Assembly: GCA_943357175.1 (NCBI GenBank) | Contig: CALRGE010000002.1 | Location: 1-64,000, forward strand | Length of the DNA stretch: 64,000 nucleotides | Origin: Candidatus Peribacteria bacterium | GTDB taxonomy: Bacteria; Patescibacteriota; Gracilibacteria; UBA1369; 2-02-FULL-48-14 | Direction of reading: 5' to 3' | Shown here: one piece after another, positions 34,646 through 62,509 of the stretch | How the letters are laid out: each line of letters begins with the position of its first letter | How positions within the stretch are numbered: the stretch's first letter is position 1 | Notes under the pieces: generated by a model | What the model was told of the DNA's origin: nothing | Seen by the model: the letters and a program-made list of their open reading frames with translations, nothing else | Databases searched by the model: none | Translations under genes and position numbers: made by a program

Positions 34646-35026
34646 TTAAACAATATGCCAGCACTGAGGCTCAGCTTTTTCAAAAACCTCCCTGTATAAG
34701 GCTAAAGTTGTAGAGCTATATTCTGGTAAACGCGAGTTAAATTCAACTTTTGTATATGGCCTGTGATCTAAATAGCTTCCATAAACTCTATCGCAAAATT
34801 CACGATACGCTCGAGTATCTAAAATATGAGCATGCCAAACTTTATCAATTGGTAGGGAATACATCGGCAGCTCACCTGCATGATGAAGTCTAAGAATTAA
34901 ATACTTCTTATATTCAGAAATTAACTCCAACACTTCATCTTCTGCAAATCCAAGTTTTTCCAAGCGTGGAATTAAGAAGCTTAAATCTTCATTCTCTATT
35001 TGTTCTGTCTGAAATTGTTTATTCAT
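34646..35026 (-). CDS. Glycine-rich-domain-containing-protein-like (GRDP/DUF1399) protein
   Basis: 126 aa. The segment LPIDKVWHAHILDTRAYREF and then YGSYLDHRPYTK carries the D-x-x-WHAH...Y...C...G...H-x-P pattern of the GRDP-like family (PF07173-type). Helical, soluble and of unknown role. It lies between the two Cys-rich paralogues on the same strand and probably shares a regulatory context with them. Confidence 0.75.
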   Translation of the reverse strand: MNKQFQTEQIENEDLSFLIPRLEKLGFAEDEVLELISEYKKYLILRLHHAGELPMYSLPIDKVWHAHILDTRAYREFCDRVYGSYLDHRPYTKVEFNSRLPEYSSTTLALYREVFEKAEPQCWHIV

Positions 35027-53629: not shown

Positions 53630-53657
53630 TTTACAATGTTTAGTCTTTTGCTAAAAT
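53630..53657 (+). promoter_or_regulatory. Promoter of small RNA 1
   Basis: TTTACA (53630-53635), 16-bp spacer, TAAAAT (53652-53657). Transcription is expected to start about 53664, exactly at the 5' side of the hairpin. Confidence 0.7.
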
Positions 53658-53663
53658 CTAGTT

Positions 53664-53715
53664 GAAAAGGCTTTCGGCCGTGGTTTATATACCACACTTA
53701 GCGGAAAGTCTTTTT
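53664..53715 (+). ncRNA. Candidate small RNA gene 1, hairpin with U-run end
   Basis: About 52 nt. Outer 9-bp stem AAGGCTTTC (53667-53675) with GAAAGTCTT (53704-53712), including one G-U. Then a G-G mismatch, GC/GC, an asymmetric internal loop (C against ACTTA) and an inner stem GTGGT/ACCAC with loop TTATAT. T5 follows (53711-53715). The 27-nt core 53676-53702 is identical to that in RNA 2. Promoter and terminator define a free RNA rather than an UTR. Confidence 0.7.
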
Positions 53716-53717
53716 GC

Positions 53718-53745
53718 TTGTAATCAAATATTTATTTGGTAAAAT
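53718..53745 (+). promoter_or_regulatory. Promoter of small RNA 2
   Basis: TTGTAA (53718-53723), 16-bp spacer, TAAAAT (53740-53745), the same spacing and -10 as promoter 1, 88 bp downstream. Expected start about 53752. Confidence 0.7.
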
Positions 53746-53751
53746 CGGTTT

Positions 53752-53803
53752 GAAGGGACTCAAGGCCGTGGTTTATATACCACACTTAGCTGCGGGTCTT
53801 TTT
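53752..53803 (+). ncRNA. Candidate small RNA gene 2, tandem copy
   Basis: About 52 nt. Core 53764-53790 is identical to RNA 1. The outer stem has changed to AAGGGACTC (53753-53761) with GGGTCTTTT (53794-53802), still 9 pairs using G-U, which is compensatory change rather than drift. T5 at 53799-53803 runs into the complement of the stop codon of the convergent 137-aa gene (TCA at 53803-53805). Confidence 0.7.
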
Positions 53804-54216
53804 CATTTATCAGGGAAAATAGAGATCAACCATTTTTGTGAAGTTTTTTTATCTTCTTTAATTTGTACATGAAAAAGATCATTTTCTAGTGTACAGCCAG
53901 AAAATCTATGTAGGATTTCAGATCTTTTATTCGGATTTTCCTTAGACTGTGGTTCATGTTTACTGTACTCAATAAGCTTAATTGCCGCTGGAAAATATTT
54001 CAAACGTCTAACCCTATCTCGCCAATTTTCCTTTAGAAAAAGATGTTGCCAAAAAATTTCCAGAAATATTTTATCTTTTTTGAAGTATGCTGATCTTAAA
54101 TAAGGCCTTCTTTTACTTCTCCGCTTAATTTTTTTATAATACTCAGATGCCCTCGAATTTACTGATTTGAAGTCTTTACCAGGAATCTTGCCCACTTTTG
54201 TTCGGTAAATTTTCAC
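53803..54216 (-). CDS. Small basic RNase-like protein of unknown family
   Basis: 137 aa, strongly basic N-terminal half (KKIKRRSKRRPYLRSAYFKK, then FWQHLFLKENWRDRVRRLKY). The C-terminal half reads RSEILHRFSGCTLENDLFHV then QIKEDKKTSQKWLISIFPDK, a strand pattern reminiscent of barnase/RelE-like phage nucleases (L-HRF-G-T...F-V-I-E...KWLIS-F). The fold is not proven. I recall similar proteins from CPR genomes. Its stop is shared with the U-run of small RNA 2, so its transcript is antisense to the RNAs if it reads through. Confidence 0.65.
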   Translation of the reverse strand: MKIYRTKVGKIPGKDFKSVNSRASEYYKKIKRRSKRRPYLRSAYFKKDKIFLEIFWQHLFLKENWRDRVRRLKYFPAAIKLIEYSKHEPQSKENPNKRSEILHRFSGCTLENDLFHVQIKEDKKTSQKWLISIFPDK

Positions 54217-56427: not shown

Positions 56428-58599
56428 TTAAACCTGTTTCCTGCGTCTCGCTAGTGCCGCGAGTGCTGCTGCTCCAAGTGCCCAACTTCCGTTAGCACCG
56501 TTTTCAGTAGCGCAACCTTCACAGTCAGGAGAATTTGTACTACCTGTGTCCGAGTCGGCATCAGAGTCTGAATCGCCATCTGCGTCAGAATCTGAATCAG
56601 CGTCACCGTCAGCATCACTATCGCTATCTGTATCGGAATCCGCATCAGTATCACCGTCGGTATCTGTGTCCGTATCGGTATCACCATCGCTATCTGTATC
56701 AGTATCCGAATCGGTGTCAGTGTCAGAATCTGCCTCCTCATTATCCACAATATCACTAATTGTATAGTTGCCGACTTCATCAGCCTGAACTCCAAAGAAT
56801 TCATCTGCCGCCTCAGTCTCAGGATCATCATAAAGATCATCATAAACTCCAACCGCGTCAAAATTTCCAGCATCAAGGCTAACTGTCATAATTGAAGATG
56901 CTTCAGTATTGTCCGTATAGTTGAAATCAGGACCATCAGCTGCAAGTACACCCATTAATACAGAACCTTCCATGTTGTCATATGTATAAACGTCACCAAC
57001 TACTTGTTCACTTTCATTTAAACCTTCTATATCAAGATCCATTCCTGTGAATGAAATTCCACTTGGACTTGTTAAAGTAATTGTTCCATCTTCCGCAATT
57101 GTTACTCCATTTGAAAGAACTGTCACTGAGCCGGATGAAGGGTTCGAAGTATCTTCATAATACGTTGTTCCCTCAGTTAATTCACCTGAAGTTGGCAGTT
57201 CTTCATATACCACAGGCTCTTCAGAAACCACGAGAGTATCTGAACTTGTGTCGCTATTTCCATCCGCATCTGTAACCGTCGCCGTGATTGTGTATGTGTC
57301 CGCTGTTGTTGTTGTGAATGAACTGCTTGCTCCGGTCGACGAATCAACTAAAGCGCCAGCTGAATTTCTCACTTCCCATGTTGTAGTTAGGGAAGATGTT
57401 ACCGTTTCATCATCTCTACCTGCTGCACTCAAATCAACGCTATCACCAACTTGCATCTCTGAAACCGACAATGTCATTGATGTAATTTCAGGAGCATCTG
57501 TTGCGTCACAGTTGTTATCTACACCGTCATTGTATGTAAGTGTATTACCAGGAAAGTCCGTCGCATCCGCATCGTCACAATCCAAATCTGCAGTCGACCC
57601 ATCTCCATCCACATCTCTCTGCGAATCCGAACATCCATCCGCATCAACTGTACTCATATCTGTCGTACTCGCACAAAGATCATCTGCATCTGTTACACCA
57701 TCTGCGTCAGTGTCGGTTGGGGCTGTGTAGGCTGAGTCGGAGTCGTAGCAGTAGTACATTTCGTAAGTAGAATTGTCTAAGTAGAGAAGCTCGTCATAGC
57801 CTGAAAGAGAGGTCATAGCTGGGTCAAAGTATGTAGGAACTGCATTTGAAATACCAAAAGATGTTCTTGATGGTGAGCCAGAAATACTATCAACTCTGTA
57901 TGCAATATAGGATGAATCCATCATGAAGATTCTATCATTAGTAAAATCTGCGACAGGATAAGAATCATATCCAGATCTTGAGTATATGATTGATGGTGAT
58001 GAGGAAGCTGAAAGTGTACCAACATCAGATCTATAAGTTGAATCTATATATATCGAACCTACATACTCTCCTGTTGATTGATCGATTGAGCCTGGTCCAT
58101 TAGCATTTCCATCTAATACAATACCAGTTGTTGAGCTTGAATCACTTACATTTGAAATTAACCAATAGACACTGTTTGCAAAATCAGAAACTAAATATTC
58201 ATCATTATTTGGATTGTAACCACCTGTATCAAATCCCGTACTTGTTATGCTAGAATCTACAGATGTAATATTTGATGTTATATCTGTAAATGCAACGCCA
58301 TCAGAAGTTTTTTCAATATTAATTGTACCCGAACCTGCATCAACTTCTCTTATGCCATCTCCATCACGGTGACCCACATAGCTATATAATATTGATCCAT
58401 CATTTATATTAGTCCCTGCTGAAGTTCCATCAGGATTTGTATCAATATCAATGCCACAAACCCAATTTTCAGCTTTAGCTTGAGTAGATAAAAATACTGC
58501 TAAAATAGCTGGTGCTAATTTTAATCCTGTATATTTACCGGTACTTTTTGCTTGCTGCTTTGTACCTTCGATTTGGCTATTAATGTGACGGTTGATCAT
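56428..58599 (-). CDS. Secreted surface protein with thrombospondin-type repeats, SD linker and MYXO-CTERM-like tail
   Basis: 723 aa. Signal sequence around residues 25-42 (LAPAILAVFLSTQAKA). A beta-rich N-terminal domain with many WYFG positions is followed by type-3 thrombospondin/Ca-binding loops (DADGVTDADDLC, DVDGDGSTADLDCDDADA). A PKD/Ig-like domain lies around residues 370-455. Next is a ~60-residue Ser/Asp/Thr dipeptide linker. The C-terminus ends CEGCATENGANGSWALGA, then AAALAALARRRKQV: Cys, helix and Arg cluster, as in MYXO-CTERM sorting tails. Likely anchored to or released from the outer surface. Confidence 0.8.
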   Translation of the reverse strand: MINRHINSQIEGTKQQAKSTGKYTGLKLAPAILAVFLSTQAKAENWVCGIDIDTNPDGTSAGTNINDGSILYSYVGHRDGDGIREVDAGSGTINIEKTSDGVAFTDITSNITSVDSSITSTGFDTGGYNPNNDEYLVSDFANSVYWLISNVSDSSSTTGIVLDGNANGPGSIDQSTGEYVGSIYIDSTYRSDVGTLSASSSPSIIYSRSGYDSYPVADFTNDRIFMMDSSYIAYRVDSISGSPSRTSFGISNAVPTYFDPAMTSLSGYDELLYLDNSTYEMYYCYDSDSAYTAPTDTDADGVTDADDLCASTTDMSTVDADGCSDSQRDVDGDGSTADLDCDDADATDFPGNTLTYNDGVDNNCDATDAPEITSMTLSVSEMQVGDSVDLSAAGRDDETVTSSLTTTWEVRNSAGALVDSSTGASSSFTTTTADTYTITATVTDADGNSDTSSDTLVVSEEPVVYEELPTSGELTEGTTYYEDTSNPSSGSVTVLSNGVTIAEDGTITLTSPSGISFTGMDLDIEGLNESEQVVGDVYTYDNMEGSVLMGVLAADGPDFNYTDNTEASSIMTVSLDAGNFDAVGVYDDLYDDPETEAADEFFGVQADEVGNYTISDIVDNEEADSDTDTDSDTDTDSDGDTDTDTDTDGDTDADSDTDSDSDADGDADSDSDADGDSDSDADSDTGSTNSPDCEGCATENGANGSWALGAAALAALARRRKQV

Positions 58600-61437: not shown

Positions 61438-61926
61438 ATGAAAACACTATCCGCCAAGCCCGCCTTCACCCTAGTTGAAATTGTTATTGTTATCATGATG
61501 ATTGGAATTTTCTCTACAGGTTTTGCCATTTCATATTCAAACAGTCAAAAAAAAGTCACTTTCGAAAGTGACAAGGAAAAGGTACTTTCAATTATTCAAA
61601 AAGCACGGAATCTTTCACTCACGAATCTTATGGTCAATGACACACAGGCTGATTATTATTATCTTGAAGTTACTGGAGCAAATCTTACTGGAACAGGTCT
61701 AACTCTAACTGGTTACGACATTGATGGTGTGTCGAGTTTAATTGATTCAGTGACTTTTAGCAGTGGTATATACACAAATCTATTTCTTAAAGTTAAATAT
61801 TATCCGCCATATGGCACTGTTACATTTGATTCTGGTATTCACGGCTTAATTTTAATGGATGGAACCGGAAACAACGCCTCCACAATAACCATCAGCGAAT
61901 TCGGCGGATTTGCGGATGCGACTTAA
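61438..61926 (+). CDS. Type IV pilin/pseudopilin (GspH/FimT-like)
   Basis: 162 aa. KPAFTLVEIVIVIMMIGIFS is the prepilin signal; then KVLSIIQKARNLSLTNLM fits the GspH/FimT helix. It is divergent from the pilin operon. A TAAAAT at 61426-61431 sits 6 bp before the ATG, suggesting a leaderless transcript. It is followed by the third small-RNA gene at 61969. Confidence 0.85.
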   Translation: MKTLSAKPAFTLVEIVIVIMMIGIFSTGFAISYSNSQKKVTFESDKEKVLSIIQKARNLSLTNLMVNDTQADYYYLEVTGANLTGTGLTLTGYDIDGVSSLIDSVTFSSGIYTNLFLKVKYYPPYGTVTFDSGIHGLILMDGTGNNASTITISEFGGFADAT

Positions 61927-61933
61927 ATCTTGT

Positions 61934-61962
61934 TTGATTTTGGCATAGGATTGAATTAGAAT
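61934..61962 (+). promoter_or_regulatory. Promoter of small RNA 3
   Basis: TTGATT (61934-61939), 17-bp spacer, TAGAAT (61957-61962). It lies after the stop of the GspH-like gene; transcription expected from about 61969. Confidence 0.6.
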
Positions 61963-61968
61963 CCAAAC

Positions 61969-62021
61969 GTATCACGAGGGAAAAGCACTTCATAATGTTT
62001 CGTCTTTATGCGGGGCTTTTT
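61969..62021 (+). ncRNA. Candidate small RNA gene 3
   Basis: About 53 nt. Outer stem AAAAGC (61981-61986) with GCTTTT (62015-62020); inner stem CATAA (61991-61995) with TTATG (62006-62010) and a 10-nt loop; T5 at 62017-62021. As at 53.8 kb, the T-run enters the complement of the stop codon of a convergent nuclease-like gene (TCA at 62021-62023). Sequence is not the same as RNAs 1 and 2. It could also be just a terminator of the pilin gene, though it has its own promoter-like sequence. Confidence 0.55.
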
Positions 62022-62509
62022 CATTTGTATTCAAGAATTCCACGTAAATTATTCATATATAAAATCTTTTCTCTAGCCGATTGTTTCAGCAATGCCGAAC
62101 ATTTGTTGAGATTGGGAGCCATCACATATTTCAATTTATCAATTTTATAAAAATACTTTATCAAACAATAAAAATCACCATCGCCACTTACAATTATTGC
62201 TTCATTATAATTTTTCAAGTCAATCATGCTCTGTAGTACAAGCTCAGAATCACAGTTCCCTTTTACCTCTGCATTTTTTGTAATTATTACTGGTTTGAAA
62301 ATTAGTTCAAAGCCAGCGGTTTTTAACCGCAAATATAATTGTTGATTTTTTGGAATGTAGCCTAAAAATAAATACGCTTTTGAAATTTTATATTTCTCCA
62401 AAAGATAAACTCGAAATCTTTTCCAATCCAATTGCCATACCATATCTTGAATTCCCAAGTTCAAATTCTGGCTATCAATAAAAGCATAATTATTTTCTTT
62501 TAAAATCAT
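62021..62509 (-). CDS. NYN-domain (LabA/DUF88-like) nuclease
   Basis: 162 aa. Asp residues of the PIN-like NYN site: NYAFIDSQNLNLGIQDM, KGNCDSELVLQSM, IIVSGDGDFYCLI. The segment LDWKRFRVYLLEKYK and YLFLGYIPKNQQLYL match a CPR-common NYN family. NYN proteins are metal-dependent RNases of unclear target. It ends in Lys-stop read from the same bases as the terminator of small RNA 3. Confidence 0.9.
   Translation of the reverse strand: MILKENNYAFIDSQNLNLGIQDMVWQLDWKRFRVYLLEKYKISKAYLFLGYIPKNQQLYLRLKTAGFELIFKPVIITKNAEVKGNCDSELVLQSMIDLKNYNEAIIVSGDGDFYCLIKYFYKIDKLKYVMAPNLNKCSALLKQSAREKILYMNNLRGILEYK

Follow-up and report, generated by a model that had tools for sequence, protein, structure and literature searches.

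A structured small RNA convergent with NYN-domain genes in distant bacteria: a candidate RNA-controlled toxin-antitoxin-like module

Near one end of the window (the entire 64,000-nt stretch of DNA analysed, from a Candidatus Peribacteria bacterium), a putative small RNA on the plus strand faces the 3' end of a gene for a predicted NYN-domain ribonuclease. Downstream of a prepilin-like plus-strand gene, which stops at 61926, we identified a small-RNA promoter at 61934–61962 (+), composed of the −35 box TTGATT (61934–61939), a 17-nt spacer, and the −10 box TAGAAT (61957–61962), in agreement with an earlier note on this DNA. The covariance-model match to the NYN-linked RNA family covers 61969–62020 (+) and, with the terminal U-tract, reaches about 62022. 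It includes an unpaired, conserved 5' box, AUCACGA (61971–61977, +), of which AUCAC occurs exactly near the 5' end in 62 of 106 RNAs. Folding and covariation support a hairpin with internal loops at 61979–62022 (+), which carries the apical loop UUUCGU (61998–62003) and ends in U5. This hairpin is the RNA's own intrinsic terminator and, with the family match, bears out the ~53-nt hairpin RNA that had been proposed. The convergent NYN gene encodes 162 aa and occupies 62021–62509 (−). The overlap of T5 with the complement of its stop codon was likewise confirmed, as T5 at 62017–62021 enters TCA at 62021–62023. The remark that this gene and the gene of a second pair in the window (described below) both end in AAATGAAAAAG was accurate, but the shared ending is not evidence by itself, because both genes end in the complement of a U-tract. 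The NYN start codon (62509, −) adjoins an inverted repeat, TTAGAGT...ACTCTAA. Elsewhere in the window, 56428–58599 (−) encodes what is predicted to be a surface protein; it carries long Asp/Ser/Thr repeats and a hydrophobic C-terminal tail, ending in RRRKQV, that resembles a sorting signal.

The 60-nt fold of the window RNA has an energy of −13.6 kcal/mol (z = −2.4), and four of 200 shuffles were equally stable. Promoter-like sites in this 12-kb stretch numbered 38 (shuffle mean 33.3) and terminator-like sites 10 (shuffles 8.4). The window promoter and terminator, on their own, therefore do not exceed chance expectation here, and the claim needed comparative testing. When the whole genome of origin was searched with the covariance model R1, the window RNA was the single match (48.9 bits, E 3.9e-8); it is also one of the 26 training rows of that model.

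The protein was matched by the Pfam NYN profile (PF01936) at 40.3 bits, above the cut-off of 24.2 (E 5.6e-10). Residues D12, N15, D87, D110, and D112, which we take to be catalytic, were invariant in a set of 20 homologues and in a set of 47. The predicted structure (pLDDT 94.4) matched 2QIP, the nearest solved structure, which is that of Vibrio parahaemolyticus VPA0982 (profile E 2.9e-16; fold E 5.5e-10, TM 0.76). The two proteins share only 23% identity, and the function of VPA0982 is unknown. Judged by family profile and structural model, in the absence of cleavage data, the gene product meets the family and fold tests for a NYN-domain protein with a predicted intact active site. Shine-Dalgarno sequences were scarce in NYN genes (6/76, against 7/76 in a control stretch); as a peculiarity of NYN this was dismissed, since other ORFs of the same loci were also low (26/212). 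In 11 of 76 genes a weak −10-like signal peaks 6 nt ahead of the NYN start, which hints at leaderless mRNA in some loci.

The opposite-strand 3' flanks of NYN homologues proved to be nearly all alike. They present −35/−10 boxes, then an AUCAC-like 5' box, followed by a stem, an internal loop, an apical loop ending in GUCC, and a U-tract. Two subtypes showed compensatory variation in the stem. In subtype A (26 aligned RNAs) we counted 33 both-sided compensatory changes versus 9.9 in shuffles, with 86% of cells paired versus 41–66% when the partner was slid. The corresponding values for subtype G, whose stem is GAGAGGC...GCCUCUC, were 31 versus 7.4 and 93% versus 49–69%. Among the non-Watson-Crick cells, G-U outnumbered A-C by 35:11 and 20:4 in the two subtypes, indicating that the folding strand is the one opposite NYN. 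The 5' box and apical loop are kept across phyla, with the loop-side G at 95% and U at 99% in 106 RNAs.

Promoters were evaluated for 76 RNAs, namely the window RNA and those of 75 loci; second copies, loci at contig ends, and weak loci were excluded. The best −35/−10 pair matched the consensus at a mean of 10.0 of 12 positions, versus 7.95 in dinucleotide shuffles; the score was 9 of 12 or higher in 67/76, and the −10 box ended 3–8 nt ahead of the RNA in 69/76. These results bear on the possibility that the hairpin merely ends transcription of the two convergent genes, as a shared or bidirectional terminator, without any separate RNA. The chance-level status of the window's promoter and terminator is compatible with such a terminator, as are the A-tracts and U-tracts of the subtype A stem, which could stop transcription both ways. 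A terminator alone has no need of position-locked promoters, and it is further contradicted by the 5' box upstream of the stem, the covariation, the strand bias, and the changing neighbours. We give this explanation almost no credence, and as a full account it is refuted.

Rfam 15, searched at gathering score, returned no match for the window RNA or for RNAs in 12 further loci; at loose limits the only hit was a plant miRNA at E 4.2, which was taken as chance. A tail-loop pseudoknot is suggested by conservation only and is not supported: the pairing is present in 85.6% of the cells of alignment A4 but is conserved rather than covarying, it falls to 55% in alignment A1, and over 102 RNAs it did not exceed shuffled tails (p = 0.83). 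In a third RNA subtype, which accompanies more diverged NYN proteins, AAACGG...CCUAAG replaces the usual apical part (L067–L072; IMG/VR loci L240–L243). Tandem double copies of the NYN-linked RNA occur at L028 (G017:C6), L150, and L242 and recall the RNA repeats of type III systems.

To what extent the RNA accompanies NYN was assessed in a scan of one genome per species, from which 80 named loci are listed of 386 that encode a NYN relative. Of the 84 NYN genes in these 80 listed loci of the 386, which come from many phyla, 78 are faced at the 3' end by a convergent RNA at E ≤ 0.01; relaxing the limit to E ≤ 1 brings the count to 82. The RNA 3' end lies a median of 11 nt inside the gene from its last NYN codon. 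Model R2 was trained partly on 21 of the listed loci. R1 alone, trained on 26 RNAs from relatives only, recovered 51/84 at E ≤ 0.01 by hand count in the same 80 of 386 loci, six of them in records duplicating training genomes. One locus (L171) has an RNA variant visible by eye, and another (L178) has a NYN gene without RNA. Elsewhere in the same 451 kb of the 80 listed loci, only two strong RNA matches were found, one of which adjoins a further truncated NYN copy (L196), the third copy in that record. Because of the covariation, the position-locked promoters, and the co-occurrence in 78 of 84 genes, the promoter and terminator rise above the chance level seen in the window alone.

The listed loci are mostly from Patescibacteria, with others from Omnitrophota, Chloroflexota, Elusimicrobiota, Nitrospirae, a WOR-3 chromosome, and a Chitinivibrionales bin, and the pair also occurs in a named Bacteroidota strain, Emticicia sp. 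BO119 (L189). Short metagenome-bin contigs may be misassigned; the safer records are L177 (2.4 Mb), L189 (1.1 Mb), L172 (472 kb), and L155 (266 kb). The earlier note had named two outcomes that would refute its proposal, and neither came about. Conserved structure is present in the 3' flanks of NYN homologues, as judged by the co-occurrence above and by covariation, and the hairpin is not merely the terminator of the pilin gene, which is ruled out by a promoter and 5' box that recur beside changing, unrelated neighbours. The suggestion of a class within this lineage was supported as to the class, but the NYN module is not confined to the lineage.

Closer to the window, in 99 related genomes, NYN homologues were patchily distributed, present in 43 genomes in up to six copies. 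Here 41 of 50 strong RNA matches (E ≤ 1e-4) have a NYN partner, and RNA and NYN are associated at the genome level (Fisher p 4e-18). After NYN matches weaker than E 1e-9 were dropped, 56 remained. Eleven of them lacked a model match; inspection by eye showed the RNA in seven, two are fragments or lie at a contig edge (G074:C44, G026:C17), and two are truly without RNA. The RNA is thus absent from only 2 of the 54 NYN matches with a readable 3' end. Among the RNA model matches listed, none accompanied the eight remotest NYN matches in these relatives (E 1e-9 to 1e-3; G002:C7 counted once); since these proteins belong to other subfamilies, the link is specific to this NYN clade. The window RNA is a member of a ~50–60 nt RNA family that stands tail-to-tail with one clade of predicted NYN RNases. 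Apparently intact, C-terminally extended NYN orthologues without a 3' RNA are found in G010 (L027, G010:C38:14680) and G023 (L024, G023:C13), and these extended forms are possibly domesticated or differently controlled.

The RNA and the protein seem to share a history. We compared 106 RNAs and proteins after excluding seven duplicate records as well as any protein interrupted by stops. The RNA and protein distances were correlated (Mantel r 0.53), with no permutation above 0.14. Mapped on the NYN tree, RNA subtype required 6 changes, whereas 200 shuffles averaged 31 and never fell below 26; phylum, in the named subset, required 27. By these measures the RNA subtype tracks the NYN clade and not the host phylum, and the pair is inferred to travel as a unit. 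The surroundings vary by site, as 146 mechanically called ORFs within 600 nt fell into 136 families. Mobility, patchy distribution, and occasional tandem copies would also be expected if the hairpin served a mobile, NYN-carrying cassette as its site of recombination or insertion. Yet no recombinase is regularly nearby among those 146 flanking ORFs, and the promoter and 5' box at fixed distance, together with the single-strand G-U bias, point to a transcript. We consider an insertion site highly improbable.

Loss of the two partners was unequal. Nine of the 50 RNA matches (E ≤ 1e-4) in the 99 genomes have no NYN; orphan RNAs with E above 1e-4 in the genome scan are probably chance in part. One orphan RNA (L255) retains a remnant of the NYN start, an N-terminal stretch detected at E 8e-7, and at three loci (L252, L253, L254) what appear by eye to be the last NYN codons lie beside an intact RNA and promoter. 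In-frame stops interrupt 4 of the 84 NYN genes in the 80 listed loci of 386, and all four keep the RNA. RNAs outlast deleted or broken NYN genes, whereas intact NYN genes without the RNA are rare, a toxin-like pattern of decay. The same pattern is expected if both elements just decay at different rates.

This decay weighs against a role for the RNA as cofactor, guide, or substrate of NYN in a ribonucleoprotein effector, for example in defence, instead of as an inhibitor. Such a role would account equally for the linkage and for the conservation of the RNA, and a CRISPR-associated NYN RNase of Bacteroides fragilis cleaves single-stranded RNA with Mn2+ and has been proposed to trim crRNA, according to the portion of the article available (PMC11346440). 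A mere cofactor should vanish with its enzyme, but this RNA remains after NYN is lost or broken. For a guide, a long variable stretch would be needed, and none was found in the RNA in alignments A1 and A4. We regard a cofactor or guide role as quite unlikely.

A second RNA/protein pair lies about 8 kb away in the window. The earlier note had described it as the same geometry with unrelated sequence; the layout holds, but there are two tandem RNAs and not one. The first copy, at 53658–53715 (+), scores 78.4 bits with model R3 and follows a promoter-like TTTACA-16-TAAAAT at 53630–53657; the second, at 53746–53803 (+), scores 65.3 bits and follows TTGTAA-16-TAAAAT at 53718–53745. Convergent to both is a gene at 53803–54216 (−) for a basic 137-aa protein of no known family. 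Homologues of the protein were found in 24/99 relatives, with four copies in the genome of origin, and the RNA in 32/99 genomes. A convergent RNA stands beside 45 of 48 protein matches, and 16 of 63 RNAs have no protein match. The G-rich apical hairpin of this RNA is nearly invariant and shows compensatory changes, with 29 both-sided cells versus 11.6. Family and profile searches gave no family match for the protein, its single-sequence fold was too poor to use, and IMG/VR contained no relative of it. Pair 1 is thus a conserved RNA/protein family with the geometry of the NYN pair and unrelated parts. The proposal of a recurring convergent RNA/nuclease class is borne out in that two families share the layout, but the pair-1 protein has not been shown to be a nuclease. 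The ACGG/CUAAG letters of the third NYN-linked subtype faintly recall the pair-1 RNA. At L254, two orphan RNAs, one from each family, are separated by 35 nt on one strand (G036:C3:34745–34801 and 34837–34894), which looks like two decayed modules piled together.

Comparison across genomes establishes that a convergent, structured, putative RNA with a near-consensus promoter and a terminator is co-inherited with NYN in distant bacteria and unrelated contexts. On balance, and with moderate confidence, we interpret the locus as a mobile toxin-antitoxin-like module of two genes, the RNA serving to restrain the RNase; there are no expression, toxicity, or binding data. The small RNA would be made steadily and hold the NYN RNase in check. 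A drop in RNA or an upset balance, as might follow module loss, phage takeover, or stress, would free the RNase to cut cellular RNA. An RNA with presumed steady production, conserved single-stranded motifs, linkage to an RNase, and retention after loss of the RNase carries the signature of an antitoxin paired with a toxin. The RNase is not always lethal alone, as G010, G023, and L178 hold NYN without RNA. Plasmid stabilisation is the classic setting of toxin-antitoxin modules. Plasmid records held no close NYN relative and one distant match, in Vibrio, and phage records held no NYN relative; this absence of close relatives on plasmids, and of any on phages, counts against the module interpretation. 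IMG/VR contained 14 distant NYN relatives, four with an adjacent convergent-strand RNA match at E ≤ 0.02 (L238, L239, L241, L243), and no exact DNA pattern of either the NYN-linked or the pair-1 RNA.

Our preferred mechanism is direct contact between the folded RNA and the NYN protein, by which the active site would be blocked or occupied, with the unpaired 5' box and apical loop as the presumed contact sites; no binding data exist, and these conserved elements could serve a partner other than NYN. The main competitor is a type I-like action, in which the RNA is only antisense to the overlapping 3' end of the NYN mRNA and marks it for decay, as in RatA/txpA. The genes are convergent, the RNA overlaps and is complementary to the NYN gene (median 11 nt in the 80 listed loci of 386), and any NYN mRNA that reads on carries a full complement of the RNA. 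There is precedent in the part of the review available, where the txpA and ratA transcripts converge with overlapping 3' ends and an RNA antitoxin controls SymE, a nuclease-like toxin (PMC4147584). But pairing with the 5' region of NYN mRNA did not go beyond chance (cognate versus non-cognate p = 0.68, 65 cognate pairs; RNA versus shuffled mRNA p = 0.24 and 0.78, 62 pairs), and the 3' pairing was indistinguishable from mere overlap. What favours direct binding over pure antisense is the persistence of the 5' box and loop from phylum to phylum, which pairing with the RNA's own mRNA does not require. We therefore think it unlikely that antisense pairing is the whole mechanism; a type I-like effect via the 3' overlap remains possible and might add silencing of NYN mRNA to direct inhibition of the protein.

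A conserved small RNA missing from Rfam 15 gains an identified protein partner and a predicted function, in hosts (Patescibacteria and others) about whose regulatory RNAs and self-restraint systems almost nothing is known. If the RNA does control the RNase, the reach of RNA antitoxins would come to include NYN-domain enzymes, and the convergent layout would become a rule for finding more pairs, with the pair-1 family as an instance of the rule at work. Since a member resides in the named genome of Emticicia sp. BO119, the pair need not remain a metagenome curiosity. More tentatively, and at a level we would call conceivable but not probable, the two families may exemplify a phylum-crossing class in which a small structured RNA is set opposite the 3' end of an RNase-type gene, its target being the protein, built at least twice independently (NYN and pair 1) and common in small-genomed bacteria; this would amount to a new toxin-antitoxin type or an RNA-gated defence system with its own orphan RNA family.

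DUF3800-linked RNAs were reportedly described by Weinberg in 2017. The open-licence literature that we searched contained no report of a NYN gene with a convergent RNA. The B. fragilis enzyme is likewise a NYN-domain RNase beside small RNAs, but it lies within a type III CRISPR locus, and the available part of the article indicates no convergent RNA (PMC11346440). Type III toxin-antitoxin systems (ToxIN, CptIN, TenpIN) also join an endoribonuclease to a small structured RNA, and the NYN-linked RNA is sometimes tandem. As far as the accessible text of the source goes, type III systems form one operon, with RNA repeats upstream of the toxin, a terminator between them, and a pseudoknotted RNA (PMC5086642); the NYN pair is convergent, its protein fold is not ToxN-like, and no pseudoknot is supported. 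The type I pairs txpA/ratA, fst/RNAII, and bsrG/SR4 resemble it more closely in layout, with a convergent gene, an RNA under its own promoter, and a 3' overlap or shared terminator, as given in the available part of the review (PMC4147584). Their toxins are small hydrophobic peptides (SymE and RalR being exceptions) and not a 162-aa soluble NYN protein, and the NYN-linked RNA keeps its motifs across phyla and has no extra pairing region that we could find at the mRNA 5' end. SymE/SymR, in the same partial source (PMC4147584), similarly places a large nuclease-like toxin under a small RNA; SymR overlaps the symE start, whereas the NYN-linked RNA faces the 3' end, and the protein folds are unrelated. 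Because the module fails defining features of both type I and type III, we file it under neither and propose that it represents a new form of RNA-controlled toxin-antitoxin module.
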